A stretch of DNA of 64,000 nucleotides from Ancylobacter sonchi (GTDB taxonomy: Bacteria; Pseudomonadota; Alphaproteobacteria; Rhizobiales; Xanthobacteraceae). This document shows, piece after piece, positions 29,224-39,830 of the stretch (its first letter is position 1; each line of letters opens with the position of its first letter). The notes under the pieces were generated by a model. It had not been told where the DNA came from, ran no database searches, and worked only from the letters and a program-made list of their open reading frames with translations. The translations under genes and the position numbers were made by a program. The stretch spans positions 434,001 to 498,000 of the forward strand of contig NZ_JAHBGF010000016.1 of the NCBI RefSeq assembly GCF_018390695.1, written 5' to 3'.

Positions 29224-30774
29224 ATGCAGATCGTCTCCGCCGCGGACGCGGCGCGTCTTCTGAAGGACGGCATGACCGTCGCGGCGGCCGGCTTCGGCGG
29301 CTGCTGCCATCCCGAGGCGATCTCCGCCGCCGTCGAGGCGCGCTATCTGTCCGAGGCGGCGCCACGCGGCCTGACCCTGCTGTTCGCCGCCAGCACCGGC
29401 GACCGCAAGACGCGCGGCATGGGGCATTTCGGCCATGAGGGCTTGGTGCGGCGGGTGATCGCCGGCGGCTGGCGCGGCACCCCCCGGCTGGGCGAGCTCG
29501 CCGTCGCCGACAAGATCGAGGCCTATTGCTGGCCGCAGGGCGTCATCGCCCAGCTCTACCGGGCGATCGCCGCCGGCCAGCCCGGCGTCGTCACCCATAT
29601 CGGGCTCGGTTCCTTCATGGATCCGCGCCATGGCGGCGGACGGCTGAATGCCGCGACCACCGCCGAACTCGTCGAGCGGGTGACGCTGCGCGGCCGCGAC
29701 TGGCTGCTCTATCCCGCCCTGCCCATCGACTGCGTGCTGCTGCGCGGCACCACCGCCGACGAGGACGGCAACGTCACGCTGGAGGACGAGGCGTTCTCGC
29801 TCGACGTGCTGGCGATGGCGCAGGCGGCGCGCAATTCCGGCGGCATCGTGCTGGTGCAGGTCAAGCGCATCGCCGAGCGCCATTCGCTGCCCGCCACCGA
29901 TGTCCGCATTCCCGGGGCGCTGGTCGACTATGTCGTGGTCTGCGAGGACCCGGCCCAGCACGGCGTGAGCTTCGGCGAGACCGACAACCTTGCCTATACC
30001 GGGCGCTTCCGGGCGGCGGTCAGCCGGCTCGATCCGTTGCCGCTCTCCCTCGACAAGGTCATCCAGCGCCGTGGCTTCCTGGAGCTCACCGGGCGCCGCC
30101 ATCCGACCATCAATCTGGGCATCGGCATTGCCGCCGGCATCGGCCGGATCGCCCGCGAGGAGGGCTTCGACGACTACACCGTCACCATCGAGTCCGGGGT
30201 GATCGGCGGCATTCCGGCGGAGGAGCTTTCCTTCGGCGCCGCGGTCAATCCGAGCGCGGTGATTCCGCAGGCCTCGCAGTTCGATTTCTACGACGGCGGC
30301 GGGCTCGACGTCGCCTTCCTGGGGATGGCGGAGGTCGATGTGCGCGGCGCGGTGAATGTCAGCCGCTTCGGCCGCACCATCGTCGGCGTCGGCGGCTTCA
30401 CCAATATCGCGCAGAGCGCCGGCAGCGTCGCCTATCTCGGCTCCTTCTCGCGCGGCGGCGCCGATATCCGCATCGTCGAGGGCGGGCTGTCGATCGTGAA
30501 GGACGGCGATGCCTGCAAGATCGTCGAGAAGGTGGCGCAGGTCAGCTCCGATCCGGCCGCCGCGCCGGCGGGGCAGCGCCAGCTGGTCATTACCGAGCGG
30601 GCGGTGTTCGAAGTCGTCGAGAGCCGGCTGACAATGACCGAGGTGGCGCCGGGGATCGACCCGCGCGCCCATGTCATCGACCGGTTGCCGCCCGGCGTCG
30701 CCGTCGCGGAGCGGCTGGCGACGATGGATGCCCGCCTGTTCTCCTCCTCCGCCATGAAGGATGCCCGCCCGTGA
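29224..30774 (+). CDS. family I CoA-transferase (YdiF/propionate CoA-transferase-like)
   Basis: A 516-residue fused alpha-beta CoA-transferase that moves CoA between short carboxylic acids through a glutamyl-CoA intermediate. The two halves are seen as the N-terminal GMTVAAAGFGGCCHPEAI fold and the C-terminal INLGIGIAAGIGRIAR segment, with the catalytic glutamate E323 in IESGVIGGIP. The start at 29224 has AGGAAG upstream; a GTG 33 bases earlier is an alternative. It begins an operon with an SDR, an enoyl-CoA hydratase and an unusual lyase, so it probably activates the lyase product to a CoA ester. Confidence 0.9.
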   Translation: MQIVSAADAARLLKDGMTVAAAGFGGCCHPEAISAAVEARYLSEAAPRGLTLLFAASTGDRKTRGMGHFGHEGLVRRVIAGGWRGTPRLGELAVADKIEAYCWPQGVIAQLYRAIAAGQPGVVTHIGLGSFMDPRHGGGRLNAATTAELVERVTLRGRDWLLYPALPIDCVLLRGTTADEDGNVTLEDEAFSLDVLAMAQAARNSGGIVLVQVKRIAERHSLPATDVRIPGALVDYVVVCEDPAQHGVSFGETDNLAYTGRFRAAVSRLDPLPLSLDKVIQRRGFLELTGRRHPTINLGIGIAAGIGRIAREEGFDDYTVTIESGVIGGIPAEELSFGAAVNPSAVIPQASQFDFYDGGGLDVAFLGMAEVDVRGAVNVSRFGRTIVGVGGFTNIAQSAGSVAYLGSFSRGGADIRIVEGGLSIVKDGDACKIVEKVAQVSSDPAAAPAGQRQLVITERAVFEVVESRLTMTEVAPGIDPRAHVIDRLPPGVAVAERLATMDARLFSSSAMKDARP

Positions 30775-31571
30775 AGCTCGATGAAGCCGTCGTCATCGTC
30801 ACCGGCTCGGCCACCGGGGTCGGCGCCTCCTGCGCGCGGATGCTCGCGGACAAAGGCGCGCGGGTGGTGGTGAACTACACGCGCAGCCAGGCCGAGGCGG
30901 AGGAGACGGCGGCGGCCTGCGCCGCGCTCGGCGCCGAGGTGGAGCTGGTGCGGGCCGACGTCTCGGACGATGCCGACTGCCGGATGATGGTCGAGCGGGC
31001 CGTCGCGCGCTGGGGCCGCCTCGACGCGCTCATCAACAATGCGGCGGTGACGGTGAAGTCCGATCCGTTCGATCTGGAGACCCTGTCGGGCGAGGACTTC
31101 CAGAAGGTGTTCGGTGTCAACGTGGTCGGCACCTACCAGATGTGCCGGGCGGCGATCCCCGCCATGCGCGCCGCCGGCGGCGGTGCCATCGTCAACGTCT
31201 CCTCCAATGTCGCCTTCACCGGCGGCGGCACCTCGCTGGCCTACACCGCCTCCAAGGGCGCGCTCAACGCGCTGACCCTTGCGCTGGCGCGGACCTGCGG
31301 CCCGGAGATCCGCGTCAACGCGGTGTGCCCCGGCGTGATCGACACGCGCTGGATGCGCCAGACGCTGGGCGAGGACGCCTATCAGGCGCTGGCCACCCGG
31401 TTTTCCGGCACCGCGCCGCTTGGCCGCGTCGCCACCCCGGAGGACGTCGCCGAGGCGGTGGTCTGGCTGGTGGAGGGCGCCCGCTTCGTCACCGGCGAGC
31501 TCCTGTCGGTCGATGGCGGCATCCGGCTCGCCGGCGGGGTCCGCAAGCCGGCCGCCGGCAAGGGAGCCTGA
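30771..31571 (+). CDS. short-chain dehydrogenase/reductase
   Basis: A 266-residue SDR with the NAD(P)-binding glycine motif TGSATGVG, NNAAV, the catalytic serine in VNVSSN, and Y158 and K162 in YTASK. NPGV-type PGVIDT follows. The sequence resembles FabG-like 3-hydroxyacyl dehydrogenases. The GTG start overlaps the CoA-transferase stop by 4 bases. Next to a type 2 hydratase, which makes (3R)-hydroxyacyl-CoA, an (R)-specific 3-hydroxyacyl-CoA dehydrogenase activity is the natural guess. Confidence 0.9.
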   Translation: MKLDEAVVIVTGSATGVGASCARMLADKGARVVVNYTRSQAEAEETAAACAALGAEVELVRADVSDDADCRMMVERAVARWGRLDALINNAAVTVKSDPFDLETLSGEDFQKVFGVNVVGTYQMCRAAIPAMRAAGGGAIVNVSSNVAFTGGGTSLAYTASKGALNALTLALARTCGPEIRVNAVCPGVIDTRWMRQTLGEDAYQALATRFSGTAPLGRVATPEDVAEAVVWLVEGARFVTGELLSVDGGIRLAGGVRKPAAGKGA

Positions 31572-31573
31572 GC

Positions 31574-32443
31574 ATGCCGGTCTCCGCCCGCGATCTGATG
31601 GATTTCCCCATTCCTGAAGGCCGGGGAGTGGCGAGCACCCGCGACGCCATGCTCTACGCGCTCTCGGTCGGCTATGGCCGCGAGCCGCTCGATGCCGAGC
31701 ATCTGCGGCGGACGCAGGAAAACGGCCTGGTGCCGACGCCGACCCTCGCCAACATCCTGGCGCATCCCGGCCCGTGGATGAAGGATGCCGGCGTCGACTG
31801 GCAGCGGCTGGTGCATTCCGAGCACCGGCTGACGCTGCACCGGCCGGTGCCGTTCGACACGCCGCTGGTCTCCCGTTCCCGCATGGTGTCGGTGGTTGAT
31901 CGCGGTGCCGGCAAGGGCATGTTCGCCACCTTCGAGCGGACCTTAGCGGTGCTCGACGAGGATGACCGGCCGGACGCGGCGCCGGTCGCCACCATCCTAC
32001 AGACCAATGCCTGCCGCGGTGATGGCGGCTGCGGCTCGGCGGGCACGCCGCTGGCGCCGCAGCCGCCGGTGCCGGAGCGGGCGCCCGATGCCGTGCTGTC
32101 GCTGGCAGTGCCGGAGGATGCCGCGCTGCTCTATCGCCTGAACGGCGATCGCAACCCGCTGCATTCCGATCCCGCCTATGCGCTTCAGGCCGGTTTTCCG
32201 CGCCCGATCCTGCACGGCCTGTGCAGCTTCGGCCTCGCCGGCTATGCGATCGGCCGGCTCATGGGAGCGCCCGGCTTCGCCGATGTGAGCGCCATCGCCG
32301 CCCGTTTCACCGGCGTGGTGTATCCCGGCGACACGCTGGAGGTGGCGGTCTGGCGGGCGGGGGACGATCTGCATTTCCGGGTGCGGGTGCCGGCGCGGGA
32401 TGTCACCGTGCTCGACCATGGCACGGCGAGGCTTGCGGGATGA
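31574..32443 (+). CDS. MaoC-family 2-enoyl-CoA hydratase 2
   Basis: A 289-residue double hot-dog protein closely patterned on the hydratase-2 domain of peroxisomal multifunctional enzyme 2. The N-terminal half has DAMLYALSVGYG and LVPTPTLANILAHPGPW; the C-terminal half has the signature YRLNGDRNPLHSDPAYA followed by AGFPRPILHGLCSFG, where Asp and His are catalytic. It would add water to a trans-2-enoyl-CoA to give a (3R)-hydroxyacyl-CoA. It lies 2 bases after the SDR gene and overlaps the HutC-type regulator by 4. Confidence 0.88.
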   Translation: MPVSARDLMDFPIPEGRGVASTRDAMLYALSVGYGREPLDAEHLRRTQENGLVPTPTLANILAHPGPWMKDAGVDWQRLVHSEHRLTLHRPVPFDTPLVSRSRMVSVVDRGAGKGMFATFERTLAVLDEDDRPDAAPVATILQTNACRGDGGCGSAGTPLAPQPPVPERAPDAVLSLAVPEDAALLYRLNGDRNPLHSDPAYALQAGFPRPILHGLCSFGLAGYAIGRLMGAPGFADVSAIAARFTGVVYPGDTLEVAVWRAGDDLHFRVRVPARDVTVLDHGTARLAG

Positions 32444-33201
32444 AGACCCGGCCGGTCGGCGAGGCGCCGCATTATCTGCGCATCAAGGAGAACATCATCG
32501 CGCTGATCGCCGAGGGCAAGCTCAGGCCCGGCGACCGCGTCTATTCCGAGAGCGAACTGGTCTCCGCCTTCGGGGTCAGCCGGATGACCGCCAACCGCGC
32601 CTTGCGCGAGCTGATGTTCGAGGGCGTGCTGACGCGCTCCGCCGGGCTCGGCACCTTCGTGTCGTCGCAGCGGCAGGATGTCGATCTCCTGCAGATCCGC
32701 AACATCGCCGAGGAGATTTCCGGCCGCGGCCACACGCACACCGCCCGGTTGGTGGTGGCCGAGCGCATCGCGGCGGATGCGGGCGTCGCCCAGTCGCTGG
32801 ATATCGCGGCCGGCATCGAGGTGATGCGCACGCTGATCGTCCATCTGGAGGACGACCAGCCGATCCAGATGGAGGAGCGCTACGTCAATCCCGTCGTCGC
32901 GCCGGACTATCTCGCCAATGACTTCACCCGGATCACGCCGAACGAGTACCTCTCGCAGGTCGCGCCGATCACCGCCTTCGAGCATTTCGTCGAGGCGATC
33001 CGGCCGGATGCGACGATCCGCCGGCTGCTCGGCGTCAAGCCAGACCAGCCCTGCCTGCGAGTGTTCCGCCGCACCTGGTCGGGCGAGGCGGTGGTGACCT
33101 GCGCGCTGCTCTCCTATCCCGGCGACAAGTACCGGCTGGAGGCGCGCTCGCGCGACATTCCGGCCAAACCCGCCCGCCTGCCGCAGGAGTCCATGCCATG
33201 A
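32440..33201 (+). CDS. GntR-family regulator, HutC subfamily
   Basis: A 253-residue regulator with a winged helix-turn-helix (YLRIKENIIALIAEGKLRPGDRVYSESELVSAFGVSRMTANRALREL, about 12-60) and a UTRA ligand-binding domain (about 95-240). This is the architecture of HutC, the urocanate-responsive repressor of histidine use. It is located directly before a histidine-ammonia-lyase homologue and has a HutC-type operator upstream of the operon, so it may sense an unsaturated acid product made by that lyase. It is coupled to both neighbours by ATGA overlaps. Confidence 0.93.
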   Translation: MKTRPVGEAPHYLRIKENIIALIAEGKLRPGDRVYSESELVSAFGVSRMTANRALRELMFEGVLTRSAGLGTFVSSQRQDVDLLQIRNIAEEISGRGHTHTARLVVAERIAADAGVAQSLDIAAGIEVMRTLIVHLEDDQPIQMEERYVNPVVAPDYLANDFTRITPNEYLSQVAPITAFEHFVEAIRPDATIRRLLGVKPDQPCLRVFRRTWSGEAVVTCALLSYPGDKYRLEARSRDIPAKPARLPQESMP

Positions 33202-34700
33202 CCGCCGCCGGGAACGCCGTCTCGTTTTCGGGCTCCGCCCCCTCGACCGGGGACATCGCCGCCATCGCCCGGCGCGATACCCGCCTCGTCGTCTCGCCGC
33301 AGGTCGAGGCGCGGATCGCCGCCGCCCGGGCGGTGGTGGACCGTTATGTCGCCGCCGACCTGCCGGTCTACGGCCTGACGACCGGCCTCGGCGCCGGCGT
33401 CGACACCAAGCTGGCGGTGGACGACCTCGTCGCCTTCCAGCTGCGGGTGCCGCAGGCCCGCGCCGTGGGCGTCGGCGCCGCCCTGCCGCGCGAGGCGGTG
33501 CGGGCGATGATGGCGGTGCGCGTCGCCGGCATGGCCGCCGGCGGTTCCGGGGTGTCGCCGCCGGTCTTCTCTGGCCTCGTCGCGGCGCTGAATGCCGGCG
33601 TGCATCCGGTGGTGCCCTCGCTCGGCTCGATCGGCGCCGCCGATCTCGCACCGCTCGCCCATATGGGGCGGGCACTATTGGGCGACGGCGAGGCGGAATA
33701 TCGCGGCACCGTCATGCCGGCCGGCGAGGCGCTGGCCGCCGCCGGCCTCAGCCCGCTGCCGCTGGCGCCCAAGGACGGCCACGCCCTCGTCGTCGCCAAC
33801 AGCCTGTCGGTCGGCCTGGCGTGCCTCGCTTTGGAGGATCTCGACCGGCTGCTCGCCTGGTCGCTGGCGGCGGTGGCGCTCAATTTCGAGGCGTTCCGCG
33901 CCAATGTGACGGCCTTCGACGACCGCGCCCTTGCGGCCCGCCCCGCCTTCGGCCAGCGCGAGGCGGCCGGCCGGCTGCGCGGCCTGCTGGCGGGTGGCTC
34001 GCTGCTCGCGGAGGGCGCGGCGCGGCGGCTGCAGGATCCCCTGAGCTATCGCTGCGCGCCGCAGGTATGGGGCGCGCTGATCCATGCGCTCGCCGAGGCG
34101 CGCGAGGCGACGCGGATCGAGATCGCCAGCTCGGGCGACAATCCCGTGGTGCTCGCCGAGGAAGGCCTGATCCTGTCGCATGGCAATTTCGACATGACCG
34201 CCTTCGTGCTGGCCTGGGAGCGGCTCGGCCAGGCGCTGGCCCACTGCGCCGCCGCCATCGCCTGGCGCACGATGAAGATCACCTCGGCCGGCTTTTCCGA
34301 CCTGCCGCGCTTCCTCACCCCGCTCGGGCAGAGCCGCACCGGCTTCGCGACGGTGCAGAAGACGGTCTCGCTGCTGGAGGTGGAGATCCGCAGCCTCGCC
34401 GCGCCGGTGTCGCTCTCCCCGATTCCGGTCGCCGACGGGGTGGAGGACCAGGCGTCGCTGGCCCCCAGCGTCCTCGCCAAGATCGAGGCGATGATCGAGC
34501 GGATGCGCTACCTCGTCGCCATCGAGCTCGCCGCCTCCGCCCAGGCGGTGGAGCTGCGCGGCGTGGCCGGCGAATTGGGAGCCGGCACCGGCGCGGTCTA
34601 TCGCGCGATCCGTGCGCGCGTCGCGCCGCTGCACGAGGACCGCTCGCAGGCCGCCGATTTCACCGCCATCGCCGCCTTGATCGAAACGTCCGAACCCTAG
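33198..34700 (+). CDS. aromatic amino acid lyase-family protein lacking the MIO triad
   Basis: A 500-residue homologue of histidine and phenylalanine ammonia-lyases. Most family blocks are intact: Y58 in VYGLTTGLG, QDPLSYRCAPQVWG, SSGDNPVVL, LSHGNFDMTAF and VEDQASLAP. But where the family has GSVGASGDLAPLAH, this protein has GSIGAADLAPLAH (residues 143 on). The Ala-Ser-Gly that cyclises into MIO is replaced by A147-A148, one residue shorter, so no MIO can form. The DNA reads cleanly through, with no frameshift. MIO-free elimination of a better leaving group such as trimethylamine, as I recall for ergothionase, is the best hypothesis. The betaine-type importer downstream supports it. Confidence 0.88.
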   Translation: MTAAGNAVSFSGSAPSTGDIAAIARRDTRLVVSPQVEARIAAARAVVDRYVAADLPVYGLTTGLGAGVDTKLAVDDLVAFQLRVPQARAVGVGAALPREAVRAMMAVRVAGMAAGGSGVSPPVFSGLVAALNAGVHPVVPSLGSIGAADLAPLAHMGRALLGDGEAEYRGTVMPAGEALAAAGLSPLPLAPKDGHALVVANSLSVGLACLALEDLDRLLAWSLAAVALNFEAFRANVTAFDDRALAARPAFGQREAAGRLRGLLAGGSLLAEGAARRLQDPLSYRCAPQVWGALIHALAEAREATRIEIASSGDNPVVLAEEGLILSHGNFDMTAFVLAWERLGQALAHCAAAIAWRTMKITSAGFSDLPRFLTPLGQSRTGFATVQKTVSLLEVEIRSLAAPVSLSPIPVADGVEDQASLAPSVLAKIEAMIERMRYLVAIELAASAQAVELRGVAGELGAGTGAVYRAIRARVAPLHEDRSQAADFTAIAALIETSEP

Positions 34701-34744: not shown

Positions 34745-35641
34745 ATGAAAAGACTGTCGATCCTGTCCGCTGCCGCCGCGGTGATCGCCGCCGTCGTCGC
34801 CGTCACTACCCAGCCTGCCGCCGCCGCCGAGCCGATCAAGGTCGGCAGCAAGAACTTCACCGAGCAGTACATCCTCGCCGAGATGTACGCGGCGCTCTTG
34901 GAGAACGCCGGCTTCCAGGTGGAGCGCAAGATCAATCTGGGCGGCACGCTGATCGCCCATCAGGCGCTGACCACCGGGGCGATCGACCTCTACCCCGAAT
35001 ATACCGGCACCGCGCTGTCGGCGGTGGTGAAGGGCACGATGTCGACCGATGCCGATGCGGTCTACAAGCAGGTGAAGGACTTCTATGCCGAGAAGTTCAA
35101 CCTCGCCTGGCTGAAGCCGACCGGCATCAACAACGGCTATGTGATCGTCGTCCGCCAGGAAACCGCCGACGCCGACAAGCTGAAGACGCTGTCCGACCTC
35201 GCCAAGGTCTCCAACAAGCTGGTGTTCGGCGGCGGCGCCGAGTTCCCGGACCGCGCCGACGGGCTGCCCGGCCTGAAGCGCGTCTATGACGCCGAGTTCA
35301 AGGAATTCAAGCAGTTCGCCAAGCTGGGCCTGCGCTATGACGCGCTGGCGCAGAAGGACATCGACGTCGCCAACGGCGCCGCCACCGACTGGCAGATCAA
35401 CACCCAGAACCTCGTCGCGCTCAAGGACGACAAGGGGCTGTTCCCGCCCTACTACGTCGCGCCGGTGGTGCGCCAGCAGGTGATCGACGCCAATCCGAAG
35501 CTGGTCGAGGTGCTGGAAGTGCTCGGTCCGCATCTCGACAACGAGAAGATGCGGGTGCTGAACGCCAAGGTCGAGGTCGACCACGAAGAGGCGAAGGACG
35601 TGGCGAAGGAATTCCTGAAGCAGGAAGGCCTTCTTCCCTGA
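34745..35641 (+). CDS. OpuC/YehZ-type substrate-binding protein of a betaine-like ABC importer
   Basis: A 298-residue periplasmic binding protein with a signal peptide (about residues 1-28, ending in QPAAAAEP) and an OpuAC domain: KVGSKNFTEQYILAEMYAALLE, DLYPEYTGTAL, and NGYVIVVRQE. The family binds quaternary ammonium compounds such as glycine betaine, choline or carnitine; related EgtU binds ergothioneine. AGGGAGAAC precedes the ATG. It begins 44 bases after the lyase gene and works with the permeases at 37608 and 38237 and the ATPase at 38892. Confidence 0.93.
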   Translation: MKRLSILSAAAAVIAAVVAVTTQPAAAAEPIKVGSKNFTEQYILAEMYAALLENAGFQVERKINLGGTLIAHQALTTGAIDLYPEYTGTALSAVVKGTMSTDADAVYKQVKDFYAEKFNLAWLKPTGINNGYVIVVRQETADADKLKTLSDLAKVSNKLVFGGGAEFPDRADGLPGLKRVYDAEFKEFKQFAKLGLRYDALAQKDIDVANGAATDWQINTQNLVALKDDKGLFPPYYVAPVVRQQVIDANPKLVEVLEVLGPHLDNEKMRVLNAKVEVDHEEAKDVAKEFLKQEGLLP

Positions 35642-35735: not shown

Positions 35736-36740
35736 ATGCAGGAAATCTGGATCGACTATCTGAACGCGCTGGACGCCAAGGCGCTGGCGCTGACCAATGA
35801 CGAGATCCTCGGTGCGGTCGAGAAGGCGCTGGCGGCCCAGGGCCACGGCGAGACCGTCATCGAGCCGCGCGTCCATCTGGTTCCCGAAAGCTCCGACAAG
35901 GGCCATTTCAACGTGCTGCGCGGCTATGTGAAGCCGCTCGACACGGCCGGCGTCAAAGTGGTCGGCGACTTCGTCGACAACTACAAGATCGGCCTGCCCT
36001 CCGAGATGGCGATCCTCAACCTGTTCGACCCGCACACCGGCATGCCGAAGGCGGTCGTCGACGCCACCGCCATCACCGACATGCGCACCGGCGCGGTGAC
36101 GGCGATTGGCGCCAAATATCTCGCCCGCAAGGACAGCAAGGTGCTCGGCCATATCGGCGCGCGCGGAACCTCCTACTGGAATGTGCGGCTGCTCGACCAC
36201 CTGTTCGACTTCGAGGAAATCCGCGTCCATTCCCGCCGCCCGGAAAGCCGCGACGCCTTCGCCGCGCGGCTGGAGCAGGATCTCGGCAAGAAGATCGTCG
36301 TCACCGACAATTGGGAAGACTGCCTGAAGGGCGCCGACATCATGGTCGAGGCCAGCCGGCTGCCCGAGCCGACGCCGCTGTTCAAGACCGAATGGGTGAA
36401 GAAGGGGGCGTTCGTGGTGCCCTACGGCACGATGAGCGCGCTGGAATTCGACCTCACCGACATCATCGACAAGGTGGTGGTGGACGATTGGGGCCAGTGC
36501 GGCCCCGGCCGTCCCTATGGCGCGCTGCGCCGCCACGTCGACGCCGGCAAGGTGACCGCCGAGACGCTGCATGCCGAGATCGGCCAGATCGTCTGCGGCC
36601 TGAAGCCGGGCCGGGAGAATGACGGCGAGACCATCCTGTTCTGGCATCGCGGCCTCAGCACCACCGACGTCGCCCTCGGCGCGGCGATGGTCGACAAGGC
36701 GCATGCCATGGGCATCGGCCAGCGGCTGCGGTTCGCGTGA
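35736..36740 (+). CDS. ornithine cyclodeaminase/mu-crystallin family protein
   Basis: A 334-residue NAD(P)-dependent protein. The nucleotide-binding segment is unusual: LGHIGARGTSYWNVRLL where the family normally has GxGxQA. The N-terminal dimer platform is present (KVVGDFVDNY, TDMRTGAVTAIGAKYLAR). Members deaminate ornithine, reduce cyclic imines or make diamino acids. Its place between the binding protein and permease genes suggests a role in processing the imported compound, perhaps its amino- or imino-acid part. The stop overlaps the next start (GTGA). Confidence 0.85.
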   Translation: MQEIWIDYLNALDAKALALTNDEILGAVEKALAAQGHGETVIEPRVHLVPESSDKGHFNVLRGYVKPLDTAGVKVVGDFVDNYKIGLPSEMAILNLFDPHTGMPKAVVDATAITDMRTGAVTAIGAKYLARKDSKVLGHIGARGTSYWNVRLLDHLFDFEEIRVHSRRPESRDAFAARLEQDLGKKIVVTDNWEDCLKGADIMVEASRLPEPTPLFKTEWVKKGAFVVPYGTMSALEFDLTDIIDKVVVDDWGQCGPGRPYGALRRHVDAGKVTAETLHAEIGQIVCGLKPGRENDGETILFWHRGLSTTDVALGAAMVDKAHAMGIGQRLRFA

Positions 36741-37564
36741 ACGCCATGCCGGATACCGCCCCGCCCGTCGCCTGCTCGCGCATGTACAATCTCAGCCCCG
36801 CCATCCGCGCGGCATGGGACGAACTGTTCGCGTGGCTGGCCCGGCGGTCGGGTGTCCGGCTTGAGGTGATCGCCCATGCGGCGCCCGCTCCGCTGTCCGC
36901 GCTGTGGAGCCGGCCGGACATGGGCGCGGTGTTCATGTGCGGCTATCCCTTCGCGCGGCTGGCGCCATCGCTGCGGCCCGTCCCGCTCGCCGCGCCGGTG
37001 TCGCGCGCGGCATGGGCGGCCGGGCGGCCGCTCTATGCCAGCCACATCGTGACGCGGCAGGATGGCCCGCTCTCGGTCGCCGAGCTCGCCACGGTGCGCT
37101 GGGGCTGGACGGTGCGGGATTCGCAGTCCGGTTATCATGCGCCGCGGCAGTTCCTTCTCCAGCATTTCGGCGCTGCGGCCGCCGGCATCGCGGCGGACGG
37201 CCCGCTCCTCAATCCCGCGGGCGTGCTGGCGGCGCTGGATGAGGGGCGGATCGAGGCCGGGCCGGTCGACGCCTATGCGTGGCAATTGCTCGAACTCCAC
37301 GAGCCGGCACTGGTGCAACCCTTCCGCGTCGTGGCGACCACGGCGTCGACGCCCTGTCCGCTGCTGGTAGCGTCCACCGGCCAGCCGGACACGGTGGTGG
37401 AAGCGCTCCGCCACGCGCTGCTCGGCGCGCAGGACGATCCGGCCGGGCGGGCGATCCTCGGTGCTCTGGGGCTGGAAGCCTTCGTCGCGCCCGACCTCGC
37501 TTCCTATGCGGCGCTGCCGCTGCGGGCCGATGCCACCGACCGGGAACTGGGAGCGACGTGGTGA
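36737..37564 (+). CDS. PhnD-like periplasmic-binding-fold protein without signal peptide
   Basis: A 275-residue protein matching the phosphonate-binding PhnD type: FMCGYPFARL near 70, YASHIVTR, SQSGYHAPRQFLL, and AGPVDAYAWQLLELHEP. No signal peptide is evident from either the GTG at 36737 or the ATG at 36746, so the protein is likely cytoplasmic, which is odd for a binding protein. It could be an enzyme or sensor that recognises the imported compound. It is coupled to the OCD-type gene and ends 43 bases before the first permease gene. Confidence 0.75.
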   Translation: MNAMPDTAPPVACSRMYNLSPAIRAAWDELFAWLARRSGVRLEVIAHAAPAPLSALWSRPDMGAVFMCGYPFARLAPSLRPVPLAAPVSRAAWAAGRPLYASHIVTRQDGPLSVAELATVRWGWTVRDSQSGYHAPRQFLLQHFGAAAAGIAADGPLLNPAGVLAALDEGRIEAGPVDAYAWQLLELHEPALVQPFRVVATTASTPCPLLVASTGQPDTVVEALRHALLGAQDDPAGRAILGALGLEAFVAPDLASYAALPLRADATDRELGATW

Positions 37565-37607: not shown

Positions 37608-38240
37608 ATGAAATGGGTCCCCAAGAACATCGACCGGCTGGTCGAGGCCCTGCTGCAGCACCTTTACCTCGTCATGAGTTCGGTCGGCATCGCGCTGGCG
37701 ATCTCACTGGTGGTCGGCATCTGGGCGGCGCGCCGGCCGGCGACCTTCAACGTCATCGTCATCGTCACCGGCGTGCTGTTCGCCATTCCGAGTCTGGCGC
37801 TGTTCGCGCTGTTCATTCCGGTGATGGGGATCGGCGCCGCGCCGGCGATCGTCGGCCTCGCCGCCTATTCGCTGATGATCCTCATCCGCAATATCGGCCT
37901 CGGCTTCCAGTCGATCCCGCGCGACGTGCTCGAGGCGGCGCACGGCATGGGCTATGGCAGCCTGCGCCGCATCTGGGAGGTGGAGCTGCCGCTGGCGCTG
38001 CCCTTCATCGTCAGCGGCGTGCGCATTGCGATGGTGACGGTGATCGGCATCGCCACCGTCGCGGCCTATATCAATGCCGGCGGGCTCGGGGTGATCATCT
38101 TCGAGGGCATCGACCAGCGCTTCCCTGAGAAGATCATCGCCGGCGGCCTGTTGACCTCGGCTCTGGCGCTGTTCACCGACTATCTGTTCGCGGGCCTGGA
38201 ACGGGTGCTGCGGCGCCGCAGCGGGAGGGTCGGCGGATGA
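37608..38240 (+). CDS. betaine-type ABC importer permease 1 (OpuCB-like)
   Basis: A 210-residue inner membrane permease with about five to six helices. The ATPase-contact loop is EAAHGMGYGSLRRIWEVELPLALPFI, and the family's FAIPSLALFALFIPVMGIG segment is present. GAGGGGAG lies before the ATG at 37608. It pairs with the next permease (4-base overlap), the OpuC-type binding protein and the ATPase at 38892. Confidence 0.93.
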   Translation: MKWVPKNIDRLVEALLQHLYLVMSSVGIALAISLVVGIWAARRPATFNVIVIVTGVLFAIPSLALFALFIPVMGIGAAPAIVGLAAYSLMILIRNIGLGFQSIPRDVLEAAHGMGYGSLRRIWEVELPLALPFIVSGVRIAMVTVIGIATVAAYINAGGLGVIIFEGIDQRFPEKIIAGGLLTSALALFTDYLFAGLERVLRRRSGRVGG

Positions 38241-38872
38241 TCCTCGTCGAGGCGTTCAACTGGATCCTCGCCAATCCCGGCACGTTCTTCTCGGCCTTCA
38301 ATCGCCACGTGCTGATGTGCGTCATCTCGCTCGGCATCGCGCTGGTGATCGCGATGCCGCTCGGGCTGGTGGTGGCTCGCTCACCGCGCGCGGCTTTCGT
38401 CGCGATCAACGTCGCGGGCTCGCTGCGCTCGATCCCGAGCCTCGCCATCCTGTCGGCCGCGATGCCGTTTCTCGGCATCGGCCTCCTGCCCTCGGTGGTG
38501 GCGCTGGTCGTGCTGGCGGTGCCGCCGCTGCTGCTCAACACTGTGGTCGGCATCCGCGAGATCGATCCCTCGGTCCTCGACGCGGCGAACGGCATGGGCA
38601 TGGCCCGGCGCGACATTCGCTGGCAGATCGAGATCCCGCTCGCGGTGCCCTCGATCCTTGCCGGGGTGCGCACCAGCGCCATCCAGGTGATCGGCGGCGC
38701 GGCGCTCGCCTCCTTCATCGGCGGCGGCGGGCTCGGCGACTTCATCAATGCTGGCATCGCGATCATGAACATGCCCCGCCTCCTGGTGGGGGCGGTGCCG
38801 ATCGCCCTGCTCGCCATCCTGACGGAAGTGCTGTTCGGCTGGATCGAACGCTCCGTCACCACCAGACGATGA
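38237..38872 (+). CDS. betaine-type ABC importer permease 2 (OpuCD-like)
   Basis: A 211-residue inner membrane permease, paralogous to the previous one. Its coupling loop is DAANGMGMARRDIRWQIEIPLAVPSIL, preceded by SIPSLAILSAAMPFLGIG and followed by SFIGGGGLGDFINAGI. Two different permeases with one ATPase is the usual OpuC/YehWXYZ design. Start overlaps the previous stop (ATGA). Confidence 0.93.
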   Translation: MILVEAFNWILANPGTFFSAFNRHVLMCVISLGIALVIAMPLGLVVARSPRAAFVAINVAGSLRSIPSLAILSAAMPFLGIGLLPSVVALVVLAVPPLLLNTVVGIREIDPSVLDAANGMGMARRDIRWQIEIPLAVPSILAGVRTSAIQVIGGAALASFIGGGGLGDFINAGIAIMNMPRLLVGAVPIALLAILTEVLFGWIERSVTTRR

Positions 38873-38891: not shown

Positions 38892-39830
38892 ATGATACGG
38901 CTCGATCATGTGACCAAGAACTACGAGGGCAGCGGTCGCCACGCGGTCGACAATCTCGATCTCGTCATCGAGACCGGCACGACGGTGGCGATGATCGGCC
39001 CGTCCGGCTGCGGCAAGACCACGACGATGCGGATGATCAATCGTCTGGAGACGCCGACCAGCGGCCGAGTGCTGGTGAACGGGCGCGACGTCGCCGAGAC
39101 CGACCCGCAGGAGCTGCGCCGCCACATCGGCTATGTGATCCAGCAGGTGGGCCTGTTCCCGCACATGACCATCGAGCGGAACATCGCCACCGTGCCCCGG
39201 CTCCTCGGCTGGGACAAGGCGCGGACCAACCGCCGCATCGACGAATTGCTGGATCTGGTCGGCCTCGACCCGGCGGTGATGCGCCGGCGCTTCCCGCATG
39301 AATTGTCGGGCGGCCAGCGCCAGCGGGTCGGCTTCGCCCGCGCCCTGGCGGCGGACCCGGAGATCATGCTGATGGACGAGCCGTTCGGCGCCATCGACCC
39401 GATCACCCGCGTCCGCGTGCAGGACGAGTTCCGGCAGATCCTGAAAAAGGTGCGCAAGACGGTGGTGATCGTCACCCACGATCTCGACGAGGCGATCAAG
39501 ATGGGCGACCGGATCGCCATCATGCGCGACGGCCGGCTGCTGCAATACGATACGCCGGCGGCGCTGCTCGCCCGGCCCGCCGACGATTTCGTCGCCAGCT
39601 TCCTCGGCCTCGACCGCGCCATCAAGCGGCTCAACCTGATCACGGTCGAGGAGATCATGGATCGGGGGCATGTGCCGGGACCGGTTCCCTCGATCGCGGC
39701 GGAGGCCAGCCTGCAGCACGCTTTGGCGCGGCTGCTGGCGGACGACCTGCCCGGCCTCGCGGTGACCGGCACGGACGGGTCCTTCGTCGGCTATGTTTCC
39801 CGCGAGGCGATCTTCTCGGCGCAGCGCTGA
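38892..39830 (+). CDS. betaine-type ABC importer ATPase (OpuCA/ProV-like)
   Basis: A 312-residue ATPase. Walker A is GPSGCGKT at 36-43, followed by YVIQQVGLFPHMT (Q loop), the signature LSGGQRQRVGFARAL, Walker B IMLMDEPFGAID and the switch THDLDEAI. The C-terminal region (about 245-312) contains only one recognisable CBS-like repeat (LAVTGTDGSFVGYVSREAIF), whereas OpuCA and OpuAA often have two that sense ionic strength. It ends the module A operon and energises uptake through the permeases before it. Confidence 0.95.
   Translation: MIRLDHVTKNYEGSGRHAVDNLDLVIETGTTVAMIGPSGCGKTTTMRMINRLETPTSGRVLVNGRDVAETDPQELRRHIGYVIQQVGLFPHMTIERNIATVPRLLGWDKARTNRRIDELLDLVGLDPAVMRRRFPHELSGGQRQRVGFARALAADPEIMLMDEPFGAIDPITRVRVQDEFRQILKKVRKTVVIVTHDLDEAIKMGDRIAIMRDGRLLQYDTPAALLARPADDFVASFLGLDRAIKRLNLITVEEIMDRGHVPGPVPSIAAEASLQHALARLLADDLPGLAVTGTDGSFVGYVSREAIFSAQR

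Follow-up and report, generated by a model that had tools for sequence, protein, structure and literature searches.

What can a protein with the fold of an aromatic ammonia-lyase do once it lacks the Ala-Ser-Gly triad from which the 4-methylideneimidazole-5-one (MIO) cofactor of this family is formed? The question is raised by a gene in a stretch of 64,000 nucleotides from Ancylobacter sonchi (assembly GCF_018390695.1, contig NZ_JAHBGF010000016.1, positions 434,001 to 498,000), hereafter the window, whose own numbering is used throughout. The open reading frame (ORF) 33198–34700 (+) has an ATG start and no internal stops, and encodes a Lyase_aromatic protein of 500 aa. We conclude that this protein is most likely, as judged from sequence and modeled structure, an ergothionase-like trimethylamine lyase that works without MIO. 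With moderate confidence we place it in a pathway for ergothioneine sulfonate, derived by oxidation from ergothioneine, an antioxidant known from mushrooms; the pathway would run from an importer through the lyase to a partner of the ornithine cyclodeaminase (OCD)/mu-crystallin family and end in urocanate and the hut pathway. A previous sequence-only reading of the window is partly supported by this analysis; it overlooked the OCD gene (35736–36740), which is the most informative neighbor, and a His-to-Arg change in the ring pocket of the lyase.

In the alignment to histidine ammonia-lyase (HAL) from Pseudomonas putida, A142 is matched to A147 and G144 to A148, and S143 stands opposite a gap, leaving a loop GA-AD that is one residue short and has no serine, as the sequence-only reading had stated. 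An intact triad at another position was ruled out by a scan for X-S-G strings, which occur in the window lyase at residues 10 (FSG), 116 (GSG), 124 (FSG), and 311 (SSG) and nowhere at the MIO loop. A frameshift, which had also been denied, or a sequencing error was ruled out because the GA-AD deletion recurs in every readable member (56) of a set of 57 close homologous loci (L001–L057), among them an Ancylobacter copy with 97% identity (L001); L057, from Inquilinus limosus MP06, is broken at the loop region and was left out of this count, and in its record the lyase is spread over two reading frames. Because one deletion is common to all 56 readable homologs, the MIO-less state is, on these alignments, old and inherited, and the idea that this protein itself had lost the triad gives way to a loss common to a large, old family. 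For the HAL residues Tyr53, Ser82/His83, N195, Y280, and E414 we assume the usual roles, with Ser82/His83 governing selectivity and N195 and Y280 contacting MIO. At the two contact positions the window lyase has V199 and L282, whereas Tyr58 (aligned with HAL Tyr53), Gln279, Arg285, and Glu416 are retained. The protein scores below the cut-off of the hutH equivalog model TIGR01225 (372.1 vs. 539.15), and the host genome encodes a second copy on contig 13 (C13), an MIO-bearing HutH with the triad (614.9 bits) that has urocanase beside it.

The best solved relative in a phmmer search is ergothionase from Treponema denticola (6s7j), with 260 bits versus 240 for HAL. An AlphaFold2 model of the window lyase, built from 30 window and locus sequences (mean predicted local distance difference test score 91.7), also ranks 6s7j first both in Foldseek and in VIA-align, although other lyases are not far behind (Z 46.9 for the first, 45.1 at most for the rest); Foldseek gives a TM score of 0.93 to HAL (1gkj) at approximately 34% identity, and 31% identity to ergothionase. 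Ergothionase (6s7j/6s7q) shares with the window lyase the HAL fold, the triad that is one residue short, the catalytic Tyr and Glu, the loss of the N195 and Y280 side chains, and a lysine, K383, that corresponds to K388 of the window lyase. Of the 90 MIO-less rows that have a residue at this position, 89 hold K, a count in which the window sequence figures three times; the five MIO rows hold V or Y. Some MIO-less rows aligned later lack the lysine (L159 and L194 have H, L160 and L164 have L, L143 has M), and K is found there in none of the later-aligned MIO rows. The likeness to ergothionase that had been pointed out is therefore borne out, and because 6s7j carries the same deletion, an MIO-less, trimethylamine-releasing lyase with the HAL fold is an already known kind; a wholly new lyase class is not supported. 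With Tyr58, Gln279, Arg285, and Glu416 kept, the catalytic base is there and the ammonia-activating group is gone, which fits a betaine with a good leaving group; the predicted leaving group is trimethylamine.

The window lyase differs from both HAL and ergothionase in its ring-recognition pair, which is Ser82-His83 in HAL and Ser-His in 6s7j but Ala87-Arg88 in the window protein, with Arg88 located in the ring pocket by alignment. At this position 48 of the 57 close loci have Arg, 8 have His, and 1 is unreadable. In the fetched flanks, the 8 loci without an OCD gene are exactly the 8 His loci, and the 49 loci with an OCD gene are the 48 Arg loci plus the unreadable one. A tree of 43 rows was built by a quick method with the trait's own columns left in, and 6s7j and L061 sit on long branches in it. 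The eight rows of the His group (marked 99 and starred) are nested within a larger starred group, of 19 rows, to which the window sequence belongs as well. His thus seems to have been regained where OCD is absent, which, with two switch changes and three adjacency changes, is suggestive only. The His-type sister lyases lie outside any betaine gene run, three of them (L045–L047) near gyrA and LysE genes and two (L039 and L056) near an FGGY kinase or an aldehyde dehydrogenase gene, and these five are candidates for acting on hercynine.

The OCD protein shares family and cofactor domain with characterized members such as alanine dehydrogenase (1omo) and pyrroline-2-carboxylate reductase (6t3e), and its Arg45, Lys74, and Arg117, which we take to be the carboxylate-binding residues of the family, are invariant across 22 rows. 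It differs from the characterized enzymes in belonging to a separate subfamily, in which 21 relatives are 64–91% identical to the window copy, and it falls below the cut-off of all 13 NCBIfam families that it matched (best TIGR02371, 191 vs. 409). At E 1e-100 this OCD is found in 25 of 397 genomes of the window's order, the window's genome included. In 20 of these, an MIO-less lyase is encoded no more than 8 kb from the OCD gene and all 20 lyases have Arg, although several are only 37–49% identical to the window lyase; in the other five (G036, G037, G039, G050, and G274) there is no MIO-less lyase within 8 kb. Six genomes (G247, G069, G105, G136, G229, and G309) have an Arg copy beside OCD and a His copy elsewhere.

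Outside the order we identified 28 further OCD genomes. Many of their OCD genes show no conserved partner, and except for those with an adjacent lyase described below, no such MIO-less lyase is present in the fetched stretches, some of which are short; L130 and L143 contain unusual genes that resemble lyases. When 28 OCD genomes in which no lyase adjoins the OCD gene (24 from beyond the order, 4 from within it) were searched as a whole, an Arg-type MIO-less lyase was found elsewhere in 10, and G050 is an 11th non-adjacent case, so that 34 of the 53 OCD genomes hold an Arg-type lyase. Run with the same settings (profile A3, E 1e-60), the search found no Arg-type MIO-less lyase in 40 OCD-less genomes of the class, many of which are small or incomplete, with 13 being at least 3.5 Mb; it returned 17 matches in 11 of the 40, including two MIO-less lyases with a His pocket and the loop GSIGC-AD (L209 and L212) and two with the loop GSVGY--- (L208 and L211). 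Compared like for like, 10/28 versus 0/40 gives p 4.5e-5 in Fisher's test (p 0.017 vs. 0/13), and for all OCD genomes, which mixes searches, 34/53 versus 0/40 gives p 4e-12 (p 2e-5 vs. 0/13), with kinship ignored in all four values.

Neighboring genes in relatives point to sulfur and to histidine degradation. A YeiH-family gene with a LysR regulator is encoded upstream of the cluster in 16 of the 57 close loci (L025, L026, L028–L038, L050, L052, and L055), all of them OCD-bearing, and the YeiH proteins form three sequence groups (14 loci 83–100% identical to the L025 copy, L038 at 50%, and L036 at 32%). One study of Salmonella describes yeiH as regulated by YeiE and YeiH as conferring sulfite resistance (PMC12880088). 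The OCD gene overlaps cysNC in L092 and L094, and the next gene in L092 is an ORF that reads as cysD; in L092 HutG adjoins the lyase, and in L133 a truncated HutF adjoins OCD. L150 has a run of OCD, the gene for a PF12974 protein, HutC, HutH with the triad, HutU, HutD, HutI, and HutF, of which HutH and HutC were named by match and HutU, HutD, HutI, and HutF were read from translations; a search of that whole genome found no MIO-less lyase.

The analysis shows the fold and the lost triad of the lyase, its Arg88, its gene run and conserved partner, the sulfur and hut neighbors of relatives, and a host with HutH and urocanase; substrate, trimethylamine release, desulfonation, and regulator induction we infer from these as follows. 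The OpuAC-type ABC importer would take up ergothioneine sulfonate, whose acidic ring group would be held by Arg88 in place of the pocket His. Tyr58 would abstract the beta proton and trimethylamine would leave to give an imidazole acrylate, in this case urocanate-2-sulfonate; the MIO electrophile, which activates the poor amino leaving group in HAL and in the phenylalanine and tyrosine ammonia-lyases, would be needless because a quaternary trimethylammonium leaves readily. The OCD-family enzyme would then place a hydride from NAD(P)H onto imidazole C2 and expel sulfite to form urocanate. Urocanate is the inducer of HutC, and here it would induce the HutC-type regulator and then be used via the host hut pathway. 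A sulfite step would account for the cys genes, for YeiH with its LysR regulator, and for the relative of oxyanion binders (8ed5 group). Beyond this locus we tentatively suggest, as somewhat less likely than not, a widespread route for removing sulfite from oxidized thiohistidines, in which an Arg-pocket MIO-less lyase would be followed by OCD, acting on imidazole C2-sulfonates as a reductive desulfonase that uses NAD(P)H, a cytosolic AioX/PtxB-like protein would bind the released sulfite, and hut genomes of the L150 type would use the desulfonase on substrates of other origin.

Several observations weigh against the ergothioneine sulfonate pathway. The link between Arg and OCD on the tree amounts to two switch changes, three adjacency changes, and two independent pairs on starred branches, and a sign test for Arg with OCD adjacency has a median p of 0.5, the independent changes being too few. 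A strict rule by which OCD implies an Arg lyase was rejected: it holds for the 20 adjacent lyases in the order sample but is broken by L138, and for 18 of 53 genomes an Arg lyase was not found or the case is unclear. Among the 28 OCD genomes outside the order, an Arg lyase is adjacent in three (L134, L147, and L151) and a His lyase in one (L138). The 53 OCD genomes divide into 23 with an adjacent Arg lyase, 11 with one elsewhere, 1 with an adjacent His lyase, and 18 with none found or an unclear case. The last class includes G036, whose fragment (L192) lacks the pocket region, G968, whose distant MIO-less lyase may carry Arg although it is poorly aligned there (L195), and G823, which has two odd lyase-like genes, one with Arg (L130). 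Conversely, four genomes (L077 and L079–L081) carry an Arg lyase without an OCD match at E 1e-100. L150, where OCD and an ordinary HutH but no MIO-less lyase were found, indicates that OCD may act on compounds of other origin. The YeiH, cys, and hut-enzyme neighbors occur only in relatives, as the window run has a HutC-type regulator and neither YeiH nor a hut enzyme, and the host's sole YeiH match lies on the lyase contig approximately 420 kb from the lyase; in the copies tested, YeiH and LysR pass PF03601 but miss the NCBIfam YeiH and YeiE cut-offs. Within the window, the CoA-transferase, short-chain dehydrogenase (SDR), and MaoC genes have no place in the scheme, and with the importer binding protein in 27 and HutC in 28 of the 57 close loci, neither is a fixed partner.

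The strongest alternative, which we consider unlikely, is a plain ergothionase that converts ergothioneine to trimethylamine and thiourocanate, with Arg88 contacting the thione sulfur and OCD acting later on the sulfur-bearing product. The closest solved relative is an ergothionase, ergothionase activity is reported for A. radiobacter in two papers (PMC13405746, PMC7653990), and sulfur-linked neighbors would suit any sulfur-releasing route. Yet that relative is only 31% identical and retains the pocket His where the window group has Arg, and the sulfite-linked neighbors favor sulfite over sulfide. Still less probable is activity on an aromatic betaine such as hercynine or hypaphorine, with a product that enters the hut pathway or is handled by the CoA-transferase, SDR, and MaoC genes, a trio suited to an arylacrylate. 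The sequence-only reading had proposed a betaine of histidine or another aromatic amino acid, and its histidine-type part fits the HutC-type regulator, the hut neighbors of relatives, and the OpuAC-type betaine importer. Against hercynine and other aromatic betaines, OCD and the His-to-Arg change point to an ergothioneine oxidized (sulfonated) at C2, an imidazole or indole ring without substituents offers nothing obvious for the pocket Arg to contact, and the OCD-less His-type sister group outside such gene runs is the better candidate for hercynine. A literature search turned up no publication joining hypaphorine, rhizobia, and catabolism. That the protein is a non-catalytic or regulatory relative whose activity went with the MIO triad is very improbable, given the four retained residues, the conservation of the gene with its partners in several genera, and the activity of MIO-less ergothionase reported in PMC13405746.

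The ergothioneine sulfonate pathway would draw on a same-strand run of genes (Table 1), in which the HutC-type regulator upstream of the lyase and the betaine-type importer downstream, both noted in the sequence-only reading, are matched by TIGR02018 and PF04069, respectively. The regulator does not reach a second HutC model (NF011575, 230 vs. 424), and the OpuAC-type binding protein, which has ProX and EgtUC, an ergothioneine binder, among its solved relatives, does not reach the OsmF glycine betaine-binding model (NF049931, 178.7 vs. 400). The PF12974 protein (36737–37564) has 8ed5 as its best solved relative (75.9 bits) and no signal peptide visible by eye; its gene is found in 47 of the 57 close loci and in 47 of the 49 OCD loci. 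The constant core is the lyase, OCD, and the PF12974 gene.

Table 1. Features of the lyase locus in the window.
Feature	Coordinates	Strand	Evidence
CoA-transferase, first gene of the same-strand run	29224..30774	+	PF01144; 24/57 close loci
SDR	30771..31571	+	PF13561; at least 50% identity in 23/57 close loci
MaoC-type hydratase	31574..32443	+	PF01575; 28/57 close loci
HutC-type GntR/UTRA regulator; last 4 bases overlap lyase start	32440..33201	+	TIGR02018, 279.7 bits vs. cut-off 220
Lyase_aromatic protein lacking MIO; proposed to release trimethylamine from a C2-substituted imidazole betaine	33198..34700	+	Pfam Lyase_aromatic, 442 bits; 6s7j closest structure
Arg88, aligned with HAL His83 (ring recognition)	33459..33461	+	Alignment
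GSIGAADLAPLAH (residues 143-155), the former MIO loop, shorter than in HAL by one residue	33624..33662	+	Read from sequence; HAL alignment
OpuAC-type periplasmic binding protein of importer	34745..35641	+	PF04069, 228 bits
NAD(P)H dehydrogenase of the OCD/mu-crystallin family, putative desulfonase	35736..36740	+	PF02423, 193 bits; 49/57 close loci
AioX/PtxB-like oxyanion-binder homolog; 4-base overlap with OCD gene	36737..37564	+	PF12974, 104 bits
Importer permease 1	37608..38240	+	PF00528
Importer permease 2	38237..38872	+	PF00528
Importer ATPase, ProV-like	38892..39830	+	PF00005; TIGR01186, 315.7 bits, slightly under cut-off 326.6

The searches also recovered other unusual lyases. A second HutH-like group with the loop GSVGY--- (L187–L189, L208, L211, and L151:14568-15911) lacks the triad and the ergothionase-type lysine, keeps N195 and E414, and looks like another MIO-less class. 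Two Bosea relatives (L061 and L063) have the loop GSMGQ-SDMAP, and L061, in which Glu414 is replaced by Leu, forms its own long branch. L130:13532-16473 has two tandem lyase-like genes with the loop GMD-GE, one with His and the other with Arg in the pocket, approximately 3 kb from OCD. The record L024, labeled Mycobacterium sp. KBS0706, contains the entire window-type cluster (lyase 78% and OCD 91% identical), and its organism name may be wrong.

A 2026 BLAST survey describes ergothionase as restricted to a few genera (PMC13405746). The MIO-less group, whose activity is predicted, is present in rhizobia and elsewhere in the Alphaproteobacteria, as well as in at least one genome from outside that class. 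Some of its members are annotated hutH (histidine ammonia-lyase), including plasmid copies on NZ_CP071679.1 and NZ_CP071455.1 that are 74–75% identical to the window lyase, and this name is misplaced given the absent triad. The one-residue Arg/His difference in the pocket offers a simple probe of substrate choice, and the OCD partner is a candidate enzyme for stripping sulfite off an aromatic ring. Our literature searches turned up no publication on a link between the lyase and OCD; they did not cover the paper on the A. radiobacter pathway mentioned below. EgtD is a member of PF10017.

Among known systems, HutH (P. putida 1gkj and the host copy on contig 13) resembles the window lyase in fold and in most sequence blocks; the window lyase differs in lacking the MIO triad, in scoring below the hutH model cut-off, and in having Arg for the pocket His. 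An ergothioneine sulfonate pathway is reported from Agrobacterium radiobacter by Yan, Huang, and Zhang in 2022 (doi 10.1021/acscatal.2c00169). Three Rhizobium rhizogenes records (L002, L049, and L054) contain copies that are 79–81% identical to the window lyase, and strain K84 of this species has been called A. radiobacter. Because of these close copies, the window system may be an ortholog of that published pathway.
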